NCBI GenBank assembly: GCA_029262995.1
Contig: JAJCYH010000025.1
Location: forward strand, 16,256 to 80,255
Source: Saprospiraceae bacterium
GTDB taxonomy: Bacteria > Bacteroidota > Bacteroidia > Chitinophagales > Saprospiraceae
Direction: 5' to 3'
DNA: 64,000 nucleotides
Below, in pieces: positions 1-9,257 of the stretch. Below the pieces are notes generated by a model that did not search any database, had not been told where the DNA came from, and saw only the letters and a program-made list of their open reading frames with translations. Numbering within the stretch: the stretch's first letter is position 1; each line of letters starts with the position of its first letter. Made by a program: the position numbers and the translations under genes.

Positions 1-858
1 TAATCCAAAGTATCTATTTTCAATTGTTTCAATTTTATGCTTTAAACTATTAAATGATTGGCTATATGGACAAGTACTTATTAATATTAAATTCTTAAAG
101 CGAGTCTCATAATTAGAATTATACATTTTTAAAGTCGAAAAATTAAATCCTCTTAAGTCTTGACGGTTTTCTGAATTAAAAAACAATACATTCTCAATAC
201 GTTGTAATAGTTTAGAATTTCTGAAAGAAAACTTCTTTAATTTTTCAAAGCTTGTTTTATTCAAAATAACATATGATAATTTTTCATTTAATTCATCTAA
301 AGTTGTTGCATAAGTCTTAGAAGAAAAAAAAGTAGAAAGAAAGCTTTTATCCTTCTCAAGGACATTAAGAATTGTATTAGGAAATAAAGAAGCACATGGA
401 TTTCTACTTTGTAATGAAGTGTAAAATAACTTTTGTTCCCCTAGTTTATTTCTATTTGCAACAATATCCTTGTAAGCCTTTTGATGGCTTTTAACCCCTT
501 CTGGTATCATAAAAATTGAAAGGGCTTTCTCAATTTTCGCTATTTCTGAAGTCATTAGATTATTAACAACTTTAGATTGATCATGCAACAATCCTAGTAA
601 AAATAGTTTTATTACTAAAAATGTTGCTAGAGTTTGTGAGTGCCTTTCATTTAATCTTTCTATATGTATATGAATGTATTGGAAATTACTTTCTTGAGAC
701 ATACTCTGGGACAATATTCTATCAATATAGATAAGTAATTTTTTCGCTTCGTTTTTGTATTCATCTTCTAAAGCATTAAATGTAATTTCGAATCCTAATT
801 CTGGCTCCGAAAGAACTGTATTCATATATTGCTTTATATGTTGCTCTAATAAATTCAA
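1..858 (-). CDS. Hypothetical protein, 3' part cut by window edge, third gene of the MTase/NERD-helicase cargo
   Basis: Manual translation of the minus strand from TTG at 858 is open for 286 codons to position 1 (LNLLEQHIKQYMNTVLSEPELGFEITFNALEDEYKNEAKK...). It begins 2 nt after the helicase stop codon (860..862). An in-frame ATG lies 11 codons further in. Absent from the supplied ORF track because it is truncated. Confidence 0.7.
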   Translation of the reverse strand, partial: MNLLEQHIKQYMNTVLSEPELGFEITFNALEDEYKNEAKKLLIYIDRILSQSMSQESNFQYIHIHIERLNERHSQTLATFLVIKLFLLGLLHDQSKVVNNLMTSEIAKIEKALSIFMIPEGVKSHQKAYKDIVANRNKLGEQKLFYTSLQSRNPCASLFPNTILNVLEKDKSFLSTFFSSKTYATTLDELNEKLSYVILNKTSFEKLKKFSFRNSKLLQRIENVLFFNSENRQDLRGFNFSTLKMYNSNYETRFKNLILISTCPYSQSFNSLKHKIETIENRYFGL

Positions 859-859
859 A

Positions 860-2593
860 TCATTCTACTAAAAGGATTTCAAGGTTACTTATAGCTCTAG
901 TTATTCCAATATAAGCCTCATATTTATTTCCCATAGATATAACTAAAAAAACATTTATTTTTTCCAACCCTTTAAATTTTAAAATTGAAGTATATCTAAG
1001 TTTATTACTTGTATCAATTACGTTTACTTTAGAAAGTTTTTCGACATCTTTTATTTCCATATAGTAATCCATGTCTGGCTCCCCTTTAAAGGAATCTTTA
1101 AGGAATGTAGATTCAATTAAAAGAATACAATCTTTTCCTTTAAGAGAAGAATTCTTATTGCGTAAATTGTTAAGAAAGTTATGAACAATATATTTTTTAA
1201 CGTTTCTTAGACTATTGTGTGTAGTAATAGTAATATTTGAATAACTATGTGATGATGAACTTATTTTTCGAAAAAAATCAACTTCAGAGAATACGAGATT
1301 TGCTAATTTTTTTATCTCAAAATTTTGAGCACTTCTTTTTACTTCATGTAATTTGAAATGAGAAAAATCATCACTCAATATATCTGCATATTCGACTATA
1401 TTTCTTCCTGCATTAACATAGCTTTGGTCAATGTCATAGAGAATCATTAACTGACTATTTGTGAGACCTCTTTGATGCCCACATAATTCATTAATTATTA
1501 TGTTGATTCCCCTATCAAATATATCTTGACCCTCATCAATTATTATATAATCATAATTTGGCAATTTTGACGACGATTTTAAATCTTCAATAATATCATT
1601 TACTAATTGATAAAAACCTTCTTCATCACATTCTAAAAATTTATTATTACTAATTGTAGGATTTAAACTCTTTAAAAATCCTATTAAAGTATTAACCTCA
1701 ATTTCTCCAACTATTTGTCTATTATTTAATAGAATCTTTATTGAGTGCATTAATAAATTATTCCAACAAAGGAACAATCCCTTTTTTCCTGTCTGCCTAT
1801 CAATATATGCTTTAGCTATAGTAGTTTTTCCACTTCCGGGTGGGCCTTCAATCATTATTCTCTTATTCTTTTCCAATCCGTCAAGTATTTCCAAATTATC
1901 AACTTTTAGCCATTCCAAAGTATTGGAAATGGAGTATCTATTTTCATCTTTAACCATTGGGCTGAGGATATTCTTAATAGACTCTATCTCTTGGGAATTT
2001 AGATTAAAATATACTCTGTTATAATGCTTATGTCTTTCTTTATTAACTTCATAAACCGAGTTGAGAAAGAATTCAATTGAATTTGAGTATTCACTAGCTG
2101 TAAATTTGGTCCAAAGAATTTTTTGATCAATAACTTTTGAATCAAATGATCTCTCGGAGTGCGGAAAACAAACGCAATGGCAAAAAAAACATTTTACTGC
2201 ATTGTTTAGTACTTTGTCTTTAAGTGTATATTTGTATCCTTCAGCTTGGCTAAAAGGATTTTGATTTATCTTTTTTTCAAAATTATTTCCATAATAAAAT
2301 GTGTTGTCTTTTAATGAAATAGGACCACCTTTAACTTCTATAATGAGAATCCCTTGTTTGGATAGGATTAAAAAATCTATTTGAGCACTAGTCTTCTTAT
2401 AAGGATTATAATTATCAGAATGTCGAGGAAGTTTTAAATCATGCCAAACAAACCATTCATCTTTACTCATTGAAAGATCATTGTATAACTTTCGATAGAT
2501 TTGTATTTCTCCATTTAATGGAGTCCCGTCCTCCTTCACTATTCTATTTTCTAGTGAACCAATGGGATTATCAGGATAAAATTTTACGGGCAT
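860..2593 (-). CDS. NERD-domain nuclease fused to SF1 (UvrD-like) helicase/ATPase
   Basis: N-terminal NERD-like core (SAQIDFLILSKQGILIIEVKGGPI), Walker A GPPGSGKTT, Walker B/motif II YIIIDEGQD, and C-terminal KFKGLEKINVFLVI...YIGITRAISNLEILLV typical of UvrD-type helicases. Confidence 0.85.
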   Translation of the reverse strand: MPVKFYPDNPIGSLENRIVKEDGTPLNGEIQIYRKLYNDLSMSKDEWFVWHDLKLPRHSDNYNPYKKTSAQIDFLILSKQGILIIEVKGGPISLKDNTFYYGNNFEKKINQNPFSQAEGYKYTLKDKVLNNAVKCFFCHCVCFPHSERSFDSKVIDQKILWTKFTASEYSNSIEFFLNSVYEVNKERHKHYNRVYFNLNSQEIESIKNILSPMVKDENRYSISNTLEWLKVDNLEILDGLEKNKRIMIEGPPGSGKTTIAKAYIDRQTGKKGLFLCWNNLLMHSIKILLNNRQIVGEIEVNTLIGFLKSLNPTISNNKFLECDEEGFYQLVNDIIEDLKSSSKLPNYDYIIIDEGQDIFDRGINIIINELCGHQRGLTNSQLMILYDIDQSYVNAGRNIVEYADILSDDFSHFKLHEVKRSAQNFEIKKLANLVFSEVDFFRKISSSSHSYSNITITTHNSLRNVKKYIVHNFLNNLRNKNSSLKGKDCILLIESTFLKDSFKGEPDMDYYMEIKDVEKLSKVNVIDTSNKLRYTSILKFKGLEKINVFLVISMGNKYEAYIGITRAISNLEILLVE

Positions 2594-2601
2594 ATCATTT
2601 G

Positions 2602-4320
2602 CTATTTGTTAGCCATACTAGTAATTTTATTTACAGCGTATAGAGCAAACATTTGTTTTACTGGGACTTGTTTTTTTAATTTGAATACTTTAATATTTGT
2701 TTTCTCCAAATAAATCCCAGTCAAATTAAGTTCTTCAATAATATCAGCTATTTTTTCAATTAAGCAGGTTGGCTCAAGATATTTAATGGTGGAGTTTTGG
2801 GTTTCATACATTTCTTGTAATTGCTTTCCAGATGCTATTTTTTCACTAAATCCATTATTTATAATCTGAAGAAAATCTTTACCATAATCCAATTCATTTA
2901 TTTTAGGTTCAATTTTCAAATAATAATTGTCAGGGAAATTGACTGTAGGGTATCCATCACCGTTTCCGAGTTGAACTGAAGTAAACCATTTTATACATTT
3001 CTTTGACTTTGTCTTTTGTTTTATATTATAATTTGATAATGTAACAGTTAAATTACCATCCTTAAAAGGGTGCATTCTAAAACGAGAACCTTTTTTCTTT
3101 ATAGGAGGGTTATCAAATACCTTTAATGAATAAGTATTTAAGTTACAAATATCTTTCAAATTAGGTTTTAGGTTTAGTTTAGGAACTAAAACTCTTTTCA
3201 GACCCAACTCAGACCTTAATTGAGCAGCAATAGATCTACTAATAGAAACACAAACTGCATTTCCTACTAATCTAGCTTTTGAATTCTCACTTCCTCCTTT
3301 GAATTGAAATGTTAAAGGGAATCCCATAATTGTAGCCATTTCTCTTATAGTTGGACATCGATATTCACCATCTCCGTCTCTTAATAATTCTGACCTGTAT
3401 ATTATTGCTTCTCTAGATGTCCCTATATAAGTAGCTGTAATAGTTCTGCTGGGTTTATTTTCATTTTCGGGAAACGACATTTTTCCCATAAAAGGGTGAT
3501 TTCGCTTCATAAAAAGAGAATTCTTCCATTGACTTTTGTATAATCCTGTATCATAAAAATGATCGCTGATTTCATCAAGTTTCATGCTTATTCTTGGATA
3601 CAATGGATCAGTAATTCTTCGTTTTGATTTTTTAGAAAATGGATTGGGGATATTGTCTTTGATATTTTTTAGTGCAAAATAATTAGGAAGATTGATTTCT
3701 AAATCACTCTTAATAGCATTTGTAATTCTTGGCTTATTAAAACTTCCAAGAGAAAGGTTCTCTCCTGTAATAACCCTATTTCTAGATTGTACTGCACCAT
3801 AATTCGCGGAGTTTAATATAAAACTATTGCCTAAAATCGAAACAGCTATATCATGTGGGTCAAGGCCATTTTCTTTAGCCCAAGAATTCAAATCTAAATC
3901 AATGAAAGAGTATTGATCTTTTAGATACTTTAAGGAATTAGGTACATTCTCCATATACCATGCTTTTAACTTTGATTTCTCTTTAAATTTCTTAACGGCT
4001 ACAATTTTAAGATATGCCTCTGTTAATCTTAATCCTAAAGATTTATCTGCTTTTCCAGACTTGTTTGAATTCGAAAAACTTACACATGGAGGACTTCCAA
4101 TAATTACATCAGAGTCTGGCAACCCTTCAATTAATGATATATCCTCACTAATTTTTAATATATCTGCTGTTGAACAATTAAGGTTAAAATTATGGTTAAA
4201 TGTAGATATTGCCGGTTCCCACTTATCTATTCCATATATAACTGAAAATCCTTGTTGCCTAAATCCTTCAGAGAAACCTCCTGCTCCACAAAAAAAGTCA
4301 ACTACAGTAATCTTTGCCAT
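2602..4320 (-). CDS. DNA (cytosine-5) methyltransferase with ~190-aa C-terminal extension
   Basis: Motif I DFFCGAGGFSEGF, motif IV GSPPCVSFS, motif VI ENVPN, motif VIII QSRNRV, motif X GNAVCVSISRSIA. Confidence 0.93.
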   Translation of the reverse strand: MAKITVVDFFCGAGGFSEGFRQQGFSVIYGIDKWEPAISTFNHNFNLNCSTADILKISEDISLIEGLPDSDVIIGSPPCVSFSNSNKSGKADKSLGLRLTEAYLKIVAVKKFKEKSKLKAWYMENVPNSLKYLKDQYSFIDLDLNSWAKENGLDPHDIAVSILGNSFILNSANYGAVQSRNRVITGENLSLGSFNKPRITNAIKSDLEINLPNYFALKNIKDNIPNPFSKKSKRRITDPLYPRISMKLDEISDHFYDTGLYKSQWKNSLFMKRNHPFMGKMSFPENENKPSRTITATYIGTSREAIIYRSELLRDGDGEYRCPTIREMATIMGFPLTFQFKGGSENSKARLVGNAVCVSISRSIAAQLRSELGLKRVLVPKLNLKPNLKDICNLNTYSLKVFDNPPIKKKGSRFRMHPFKDGNLTVTLSNYNIKQKTKSKKCIKWFTSVQLGNGDGYPTVNFPDNYYLKIEPKINELDYGKDFLQIINNGFSEKIASGKQLQEMYETQNSTIKYLEPTCLIEKIADIIEELNLTGIYLEKTNIKVFKLKKQVPVKQMFALYAVNKITSMANK

Positions 4321-6579: not shown

Positions 6580-7293
6580 TTAATTTAATTCATGCCAATA
6601 TTTTACAAAATCTGAAAACTTTAAAAACTCTTTTGGAAGATGTGGTTTCGTATATTCCCAAATACTCTTTATTTTTTTTTCATCATTGGTTCGTTCTGCA
6701 TCTTCAAATTTGTCCTTTGCAGTGTTATATCCTCCTTTTAGTTTATTTAAATTATCAATATATGATAGTTCAATATTGAGGAACTTAATAGTCGCTTTAA
6801 TTTTTTTTTCTATAGTATTTTCCTTATGAATGTCATTAAGTTTAAATTTTTCAAAGGTATTTGTGAGCCAACCAATTCTTGAAGAATCTAATTTTATTTC
6901 TTCAATTGTTCTTTTCTTCTTAAAAAATGTTTCGACGACCTCTTTGATCCTTGAAGAAATAGTAGATCTTATATTTTGATACCGAATTATCTCTATAGTT
7001 GTTAAACTCTTTAATTCTTCATCATTAAAATAAGCTCTTATATCAGCTTCTTCAGATTCATAACTATTAACATCATAAACAATGTTTGCTAGTTTTGTAC
7101 ATCTAATTGAATAATTATTTAATTTATCTTGAAGCTCAATTTCTAATATGTCATAATCAAGAAGAACTATACAAATTTCATCTATGTCTTTAAATATTAA
7201 TTCTTTTAAATCATTCGTCAAGTCTTCTATCTTTCCGTCCAGAGATGAAGATATTTTTTTTAGTTTGATAAGTTCAGCATATATAGCACTCAT
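6580..7293 (-). CDS. Hypothetical coiled-coil protein, translationally overlapped with the integrase
   Basis: 237-aa ORF; start overlaps the integrase stop by 4 nt; charged helical sequence with no recognised domain. Confidence 0.7.
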   Translation of the reverse strand: MSAIYAELIKLKKISSSLDGKIEDLTNDLKELIFKDIDEICIVLLDYDILEIELQDKLNNYSIRCTKLANIVYDVNSYESEEADIRAYFNDEELKSLTTIEIIRYQNIRSTISSRIKEVVETFFKKKRTIEEIKLDSSRIGWLTNTFEKFKLNDIHKENTIEKKIKATIKFLNIELSYIDNLNKLKGGYNTAKDKFEDAERTNDEKKIKSIWEYTKPHLPKEFLKFSDFVKYWHELN

Positions 7294-8612
7294 ATTACTT
7301 TCAATTTAACCTCACCCATAGCCTTAAATGTCTTAGCTCTAACTTTTGCTGCGTTTTTCTTCTTATCACCTCTCTCGTAACCCATAAGGACTTTAAGAGT
7401 CTGCCCAGTTACTTTCATTAAATCTTTAGCTGGTATATCATATTCATTAAGCATAATATTTATAAAAGTATATCTGGCAGTATGGTTAGTCACTAGTTCA
7501 GATAATTGTGTCTCAATTGTTAAAAGTTTACCACCTTTACTTTTTGTATCCTGCACTATTCTATTAATTCCAACTATCCGACATACTTCTTTAATGTATT
7601 TATTCATTTTTTGACTACTATATGCTTTGGGAATTTCATACTGATACTTTTGAACTAACTGTTTGACTATAGGTAGAACAGGAATAATGACTTTAGTATC
7701 ATCTTTAGTTGAGCTTCCTTTATATGTATTTATCTCAATATCCTCTGAACCGTCACTGTTGGAAATAAAGTGTGTTTTTTCTAATCTGGAAAAATCTGAA
7801 TATCTCAAACCTGTATATGCAGCTATCAACCACAGATCACGTGATCTATTCAGTTTTTCATTTTCATCAAAATCATAATTAGCTAATTTCTCCAACTCAT
7901 TAATTTCTAGATAATGTTTAGAAGTCACAACTCGTTTTACACTAAACTTTCTGCTTTGATACAAGGTATTATTATGATACCCATTTTCATGTGCATCTCG
8001 AATTATTTGTTTAAGGGTTTGAATAATCTTAGAAACATTATTTTGAGACATCGACTTAGTCTTATAAAGCCAATTTGTGATCTTTTCAGATAATTCAGCA
8101 TTTACCATTTCAAATGTTAATTTGTAACCAATAGCTGCTTCATACCTGCAAATGTGATTATAAACTCCTTCATACTTGGCTATAGTTCTATTATGCCGGT
8201 TACTTTTTGAAATAAAAATTCTTATGTATTCTAAAAGAGAAATGTCTTCTTTTAACTTAGGTCTTCGTTTATTTCCTATGACATAATCTAACTCCAATTT
8301 GAAGTCCGTAACGGATATGTCAGGATTACTTGCAACTATTTCAAGACATGAATCCTTCAATAAAGAATTTTTGTTGTTAATTCGATTTGCATTTGGTTCT
8401 GGTAGTCTTACCCCTTGTATTGCAATTTGCATTTTTCGATCCCAATTCTTAGCATATATCTTTTCTCCGGTTGAATACTTCATGAGGATATGTTTTCCGT
8501 TATCATCTTTCTTATAGCGATACATAAGGAAAATAAGTTGAGGAGACTTATTGTCTTTACTATAATTCAGGTTGAATCTAGGGGAGCTTGATTTATTTCG
8601 TTTGGATATCAT
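7290..8612 (-). CDS. Tyrosine-type site-specific integrase (Bacteroidota phage-integrase family)
   Basis: SAM-like N-terminal region, then catalytic elements AAYTGLRYSDFSRL, NHTARYTFINIML, and C-terminal MKVTGQTLKVLMGYERGDKKK. Confidence 0.93.
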   Translation of the reverse strand: MISKRNKSSSPRFNLNYSKDNKSPQLIFLMYRYKKDDNGKHILMKYSTGEKIYAKNWDRKMQIAIQGVRLPEPNANRINNKNSLLKDSCLEIVASNPDISVTDFKLELDYVIGNKRRPKLKEDISLLEYIRIFISKSNRHNRTIAKYEGVYNHICRYEAAIGYKLTFEMVNAELSEKITNWLYKTKSMSQNNVSKIIQTLKQIIRDAHENGYHNNTLYQSRKFSVKRVVTSKHYLEINELEKLANYDFDENEKLNRSRDLWLIAAYTGLRYSDFSRLEKTHFISNSDGSEDIEINTYKGSSTKDDTKVIIPVLPIVKQLVQKYQYEIPKAYSSQKMNKYIKEVCRIVGINRIVQDTKSKGGKLLTIETQLSELVTNHTARYTFINIMLNEYDIPAKDLMKVTGQTLKVLMGYERGDKKKNAAKVRAKTFKAMGEVKLKVI

Positions 8613-8766: not shown

Positions 8767-8774
8767 TAATTAAG

Positions 8775-8847
<73 letters not shown>

Positions 8848-9014: not shown

Positions 9015-9257
9015 TTATTCACTACAATCGCAGTCCTGGCATTCCACTAAAGTCTCAAATGGTACCACCCCACTACATCCACCCCAAATAAATTCAAGAC
9101 ACTTCATAGAATCCTTATCATAATAATAAATAGGAATTGCTGCATTACATGGACCTACTTCTGGTGATAAATTGCATTCCGGACAAGAATCCTTATCATC
9201 AGAACAAGAGAATAACACACAAGTAAATATAACTATACAATACAATAGAGATTTCAC
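9015..9257 (-). CDS. Lipoprotein with a divergent Kunitz/BPTI-type protease-inhibitor domain
   Basis: Lipobox VLFSC, then C-x8-GPC-like-x15-C-x7(FIWGG)-C: CNLSPEVGPCNAAIPIYYYDKDSMKCLEFIWGGCSGVVPFETLVECQDC. Cys spacing 8-15-7 equals BPTI. Confidence 0.8.
   Translation of the reverse strand: MKSLLYCIVIFTCVLFSCSDDKDSCPECNLSPEVGPCNAAIPIYYYDKDSMKCLEFIWGGCSGVVPFETLVECQDCDCSE

Follow-up and report, generated by a model that had tools for sequence, protein, structure and literature searches.

Two formal classes of DISARM serve as the reference for the present locus. Class 1 is composed of DrmA, DrmB, DrmC, DrmD and DrmMI, and class 2 of DrmA, DrmB, DrmC, DrmE and DrmMII. The class 2 definition used by PADLOC demands DrmC (PMC9252829). 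In the solved DISARM structure, a trigger loop in DrmA keeps DrmAB inactive and DNA with a 5'-overhang opens the complex, while the ATPase activity of DrmAB is lowered by methylation (PMC9142583). In the Serratia system, DrmC fails to co-purify with DrmAB; this protein is dispensable and often absent. DNA degradation in DISARM has been termed a mystery (PMC9142583). A 2025 preprint on the YprA family describes the DISARM-like clade as comprising many uncharacterised classes, and NERD in TALON only, a different lineage (PMC12458937).

Organisation of the operon and its carrier element

The locus compared here was met at the left edge of the window, i.e. the whole stretch of 64,000 nucleotides analysed from a Saprospiraceae genome, whose base 1 is base 16256 of contig C25. 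The original prediction was a cargo of three genes, coding for a methyltransferase, a NERD-SF1 helicase and a truncated third protein (ORF3), in one tight minus-strand unit. The two genes and the ORF3 start are indeed all on the minus strand, and the short gaps (8 nt from the MTase to the NERD-helicase, 1 nt from there to ORF3) bear out a tight arrangement. ORF3 adjoins the helicase stop as described, at a distance of 1 nt instead of 2 nt, with TTG as start codon. It is truncated by the window edge alone, the gene being intact on the contig. The operon was completed with the flanking 16 kb of contig C25 past the window edge. The three-gene extent had to be rejected, as this flank carries drmA and drmB in the same run: drmA overlaps the end of ORF3 and drmB begins 2 nt past drmA. 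The order is C5-MTase, NERD-SF1 helicase, ORF3, DrmA and DrmB, over a span of ~12.4 kb (Table 1). The gene set had first appeared unlike DISARM drmABC because the window edge cut the operon before these two genes. No classical restriction enzyme gene is found among the five, in line with what had been noticed on the shorter stretch.

Table 1. Features of the operon, of its carrier element and of the adjoining sequence (L003 coordinates are those of contig C25)
Feature	Position	Strand	Description
C5-cytosine DNA methyltransferase (predicted DrmMII-like role)	window 2602..4320	-	572 aa; PF00145, motifs and alignment
NERD domain fused to SF1 helicase, candidate effector	window 860..2593	-	577 aa; PF08378
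ORF3 start, putative strongly diverged DrmE	window 1..858	-	held-out and profile-profile tests
ORF3 whole gene	L003:14615-17113	-	832 aa; reaches 1640 bases past the left edge of the window
DrmA	L003:10447-14628	-	1393 aa, outside window; PADLOC, NF038325, 7s9v_A
DrmB	L003:8183-10444	-	753 aa, outside window; NF038324, 7s9v_B
Tyrosine integrase of the carrying element	window 7290..8612	-	PF13102 Phage_int_SAM_5, 45.6 bits
tRNA-Met	window 8774-8847		next to integrase
Attachment-site repeat TAAGTAGCGGAGGCAG	window 8771..8786		16 bp; tRNA-Met 3' end, right end of element
Attachment-site repeat, second exact copy	L003:3106-3121		same orientation, 21.9 kb to the left, outside window
KAP-family NTPase	L003:5597-7540	-	PADLOC candidate family PDC-S49, 195.8 bits
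Type I restriction subunit C-terminus fragment	L003:7452-7958		168 aa; T1RH-like_C
Secreted-looking protein	window 9015-9257	-	80 aa; Kunitz/BPTI protease-inhibitor domain, 45.7 bits (cut-off 21)

The predicted location on a mobile element is confirmed by the tyrosine integrase, the tRNA-Met and the attachment-site repeat. The exact 16-bp repeat pair delimits an integrative element of 21.9 kb at C25:3106-25041. The same element carries the KAP-family NTPase gene, overlapped by the restriction subunit fragment. The small gene on the other side of the tRNA-Met codes for a Kunitz/BPTI domain, which is unusual in bacteria.

The methyltransferase, DrmA and DrmB

From its sequence, the MTase can be assigned with certainty to the C5-cytosine methyltransferases. 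The DNA_methylase domain (Pfam PF00145) is matched at residues 5-368 with 125.6 bits, and motifs I, IV, VI, VIII, IX and X were all found, as predicted. The C-terminal extension, first put at ~190 aa, measures ~200 aa (residues ~370-572; window 2602-3210, minus strand). It is kept in all seven aligned proteins and matches no Pfam model; the AlphaFold2 model of the MTase is of low confidence (pLDDT 36.6). PADLOC scored the protein at 76.8 bits for DrmMII versus 143.1 bits for its generic MTase_II models. In the Chitinophagaceae copy of the locus, a Vsr mismatch endonuclease gene (L011:6044-6499, plus strand) lies directly before the MTase gene, and Vsr-like genes stand beside a C5-MTase in several further NERD-DrmAB loci.

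PADLOC, a check proposed with the original prediction, found DrmA at 3e-171 once applied to the extended locus. DrmA scored 720 bits with NF038325, under the 950-bit equivalog cut-off of that model, and matched the solved chain 7s9v_A at 8e-109. DrmB (DUF1998) is encoded by a separate gene. It scored 285.9 bits with NF038324, over the cut-off of 240, and matched chain 7s9v_B at 2e-38. The impression that the gene set does not resemble DISARM is overturned by these matches.

Putative relation of ORF3 to DrmE

ORF3 obtained no useful score from PADLOC, Pfam or NCBIfam, it failed every curated DrmE model, and no match was found among PDB sequences. DrmE was nevertheless suspected because ORF3 is placed before DrmA. 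In neighbouring DISARM-like loci, the large protein encoded upstream of DrmA scored 79.6 and 74.4 bits with NCBIfam DrmE_fam, whose cut-off is 80 bits, and 81.7 bits in the G058 locus. A held-out C-terminal profile was made from ten DrmE-like proteins encoded upstream of DrmA and zero ORF3 members. It scored 29.6 bits for the Psychroflexus member of the ORF3 family, 23.0 for that of G610 and 14.5 for the window ORF3, the best reversed control reaching 7.5, and the ORF3 relatives match it at the same C-terminal place. When full-length profiles of ORF3 and DrmE were compared, positions 5-810 aligned co-linearly at scores of 45-46. Controls with reversed profiles or unrelated proteins of the operon stayed at 14-24. 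The hhalign probability for this relation is ~40%. ORF3 is taken, with caution, as a strongly diverged DrmE, i.e. a putative remote homologue, where the third protein had been called unknown. The AlphaFold2 model, computed for the Pedobacter protein with four sequences, has a mean pLDDT of 51.7; a C-terminal helical domain is among its few confident parts. Foldseek comparison of this model to the PDB returned nothing below E 0.2.

Conservation of the five-gene operon

ORF3 relatives were found in two other genomes among the 396 of the phylum sample and in one more among 395 class genomes. GTDB added Chitinophagaceae UBA1931, Pedobacter sp. ASV17 and Psychroflexus curvus, the last locus being that of G053 in the phylum sample and counted once. 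No relative was found in plasmids or viral contigs. A 19-bit weak match in G089 was rejected as spurious, the genes of that locus being unrelated. The MTase, the NERD-helicase, ORF3, DrmA and DrmB are encoded in the same order on one strand in all six distinct full loci, each from a Bacteroidota genome and the present one included, by genes that overlap or sit a few nt apart. The edge of a contig in G727 shows the MTase, NERD and a partial ORF3. A seventh full locus, in G396, keeps this gene order; identity is 51% for the MTase, ~28% for NERD, 35% for DrmA and 34% for DrmB, and the third gene has drifted almost past recognition. Identity to the window proteins is 45-57% for the MTase, 41-56% for the NERD-helicase and 23-32% for ORF3, which is the fastest-evolving since its identities are the lowest. 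Among the 27 DrmA proteins placed in a maximum-likelihood tree, those of the six loci group together as a single clade (support 100/100). In other hosts the neighbours of the operon differ. The three genes first proposed as a unit are thus conserved together, within a five-gene order. The idea of a conserved defence module with self-marking by the MTase and a probable NERD-helicase effector is supported, in a larger extent than the three genes.

The NERD-SF1 helicase and the distribution of DrmC

The prediction of a NERD-SF1 helicase 8 nt downstream of the MTase agrees with the NERD domain match (Pfam PF08378, 58.6 bits, cut-off 22.1). The NERD ExK, the Walker A and the SF1 motifs are all present in the window protein. 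Residues D73, E86, K88 and Q116 of NERD and the helicase Walker A are invariant in seven aligned proteins with identity down to 41%. The operon has no DrmC; the top match of the genome to the DrmC model NF038319 scored 21.4 bits, versus a cut-off of 133, and lies on another contig.

The phylum sample, public plasmids and the relatives of ORF3 together supplied 46 DrmAB loci for a census, in which NERD was counted as adjacent when a protein with this domain was encoded no more than 7 kb from DrmA. NERD was found near DrmAB in 20 loci, DrmC in 8, both in none and neither in 18. The hypergeometric P for zero overlap is 0.006, a value to be read as a guide only because the loci are related, which the calculation ignores, and some were chosen for carrying this NERD type. 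Since 18 of the 46 loci have neither protein, a nuclease need not lie next to DrmAB. Pairs of NERD and DrmAB are found at separate, distant places in the DrmA tree, and also in other phyla, e.g. on Rhizobium and Azospirillum plasmids with NERD directly after DrmB. In some loci NERD is directly beside DrmA or DrmB with no MTase between, and NERD-helicases also exist without DrmA (e.g. L088, L091). Because DrmC is absent, NERD and DrmC never occur together in the census, NERD-DrmAB pairs are scattered and the catalytic residues are invariant, we infer a putative role of NERD-SF1 as the nuclease arm of the operon.

Other genes occupy comparable places elsewhere. In G057, a Piwi-domain (prokaryotic Argonaute-like) gene (L056:14134-16206, minus strand) lies directly upstream of a DrmE-like, DrmA and DrmB run with neither NERD nor DrmC; it possibly codes for an alternative effector of DISARM-like systems. 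A UvrD-type helicase gene takes the DrmE-like place upstream of DrmA in plasmids L070, L095, L102 and L104, and in L070, L095 and L102 a NERD protein follows DrmB.

Proposed mechanism and alternative explanations

The locus is probably a DISARM-type anti-phage operon, a variant in which the NERD-SF1 protein would be the nuclease in the place of DrmC. The MTase would mark host DNA with 5-methylcytosine. DrmAB would sense unmodified foreign DNA with a 5' single-stranded overhang, load onto it and translocate, as in Serratia DISARM. These two steps follow from established knowledge of the family. NERD-SF1 could then join the opened DNA and cleave it, thereby standing in for DrmC, the PLD nuclease. 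DrmE may act as an accessory or bridging subunit.

In a different reading of the same DISARM variant, NERD-SF1 would be an accessory remodeller or sensor, and phage DNA would be blocked by DrmAB translocation or cut by host nucleases. Bravo et al. proposed that DrmAB may itself block replication or recruit host PLD nucleases (PMC9142583), and the 18 loci with neither NERD nor DrmC nearby fit such a role. The invariance of all NERD catalytic residues and the recurrence of NERD next to DrmAB on distant branches of the DrmA tree argue against it, and this reading is rather unlikely. The adjacency of the MTase and NERD genes, together with the existence of NERD-helicases without DrmA, could suggest a self-contained restriction-modification pair, with the NERD-helicase as restriction enzyme, merely adjoining an independent DrmE-DrmA-DrmB module. 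This is very improbable given the five-gene order kept in seven genomes by closely packed or overlapping genes, and the loci where NERD directly touches DrmA or DrmB without an MTase between.

Helicases and nucleases also serve the maintenance of mobile elements, and the operon is carried by one, so that a function of the operon in replicating or repairing the integrative element, and not in defence, was also considered. This is the least credible explanation: the family of DrmA and DrmB is proven to act in defence, the MTase has been conserved alongside both, the PDC-S49 defence candidate lies on the same element and the operon has different neighbours in other hosts.

In the preferred reading, with NERD-SF1 as the nuclease, a wider generalisation can be put forward tentatively, at somewhat less than even chances. 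NERD-SF1, interchangeable with DrmC, may be the effector nuclease that has long been missing from a large, unnamed part of DISARM systems, and the five-gene operon may be a distinct Bacteroidota DISARM class. If NERD-helicases do fill the place of DrmC, the question of the DISARM cutter becomes testable by point mutations in a single compact operon, and names could be given to many DrmAB loci that fall outside the class definitions now in use.

Comparison with described systems

With DISARM class 2, the operon shares the C5-MTase, DrmA, DrmB and a putative remote DrmE homologue in one operon. It differs by the lack of DrmC, by the NERD-SF1 gene between the MTase and DrmE, and by a DrmE and an MTase that escape recognition as such by curated models. 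DrmA and DrmB are also shared with class 1, whose DrmD, DrmC and adenine MTase are missing here; no DrmD or DrmMI came up in the scan of the operon proteins and neighbouring genes. The locus falls outside formal classes 1 and 2 because DrmC, DrmD and DrmMI are absent.

TALON shares a YprA-family helicase with a NERD nuclease (PMC12458937). Its own features are an ARMADA-like single-chain YprA with TPR-CSD and TBP genes, in contrast to the split DrmA/DrmB and the C5-MTase of the present operon. TPR and TBP had no match among the neighbours scanned and DrmA and DrmB are of DISARM type by the models, which separates the operon from TALON. Full-text searches of openly readable papers found none in which NERD is described as part of DISARM.

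The operon also resembles the other loci combining a NERD-helicase and DrmAB (G143, G179, G205, G241, G375, G387 and the Rhizobium and Azospirillum plasmids). They too have NERD-SF1 next to DrmA or DrmB and no DrmC, and in many of them a DrmE-family protein and a C5-MTase accompanied by a Vsr-like gene are encoded close by. They differ in gene order and in the part of the tree where their DrmA is found. Overall, the operon is not categorically new; it is best read as a DISARM variant with a NERD gene.
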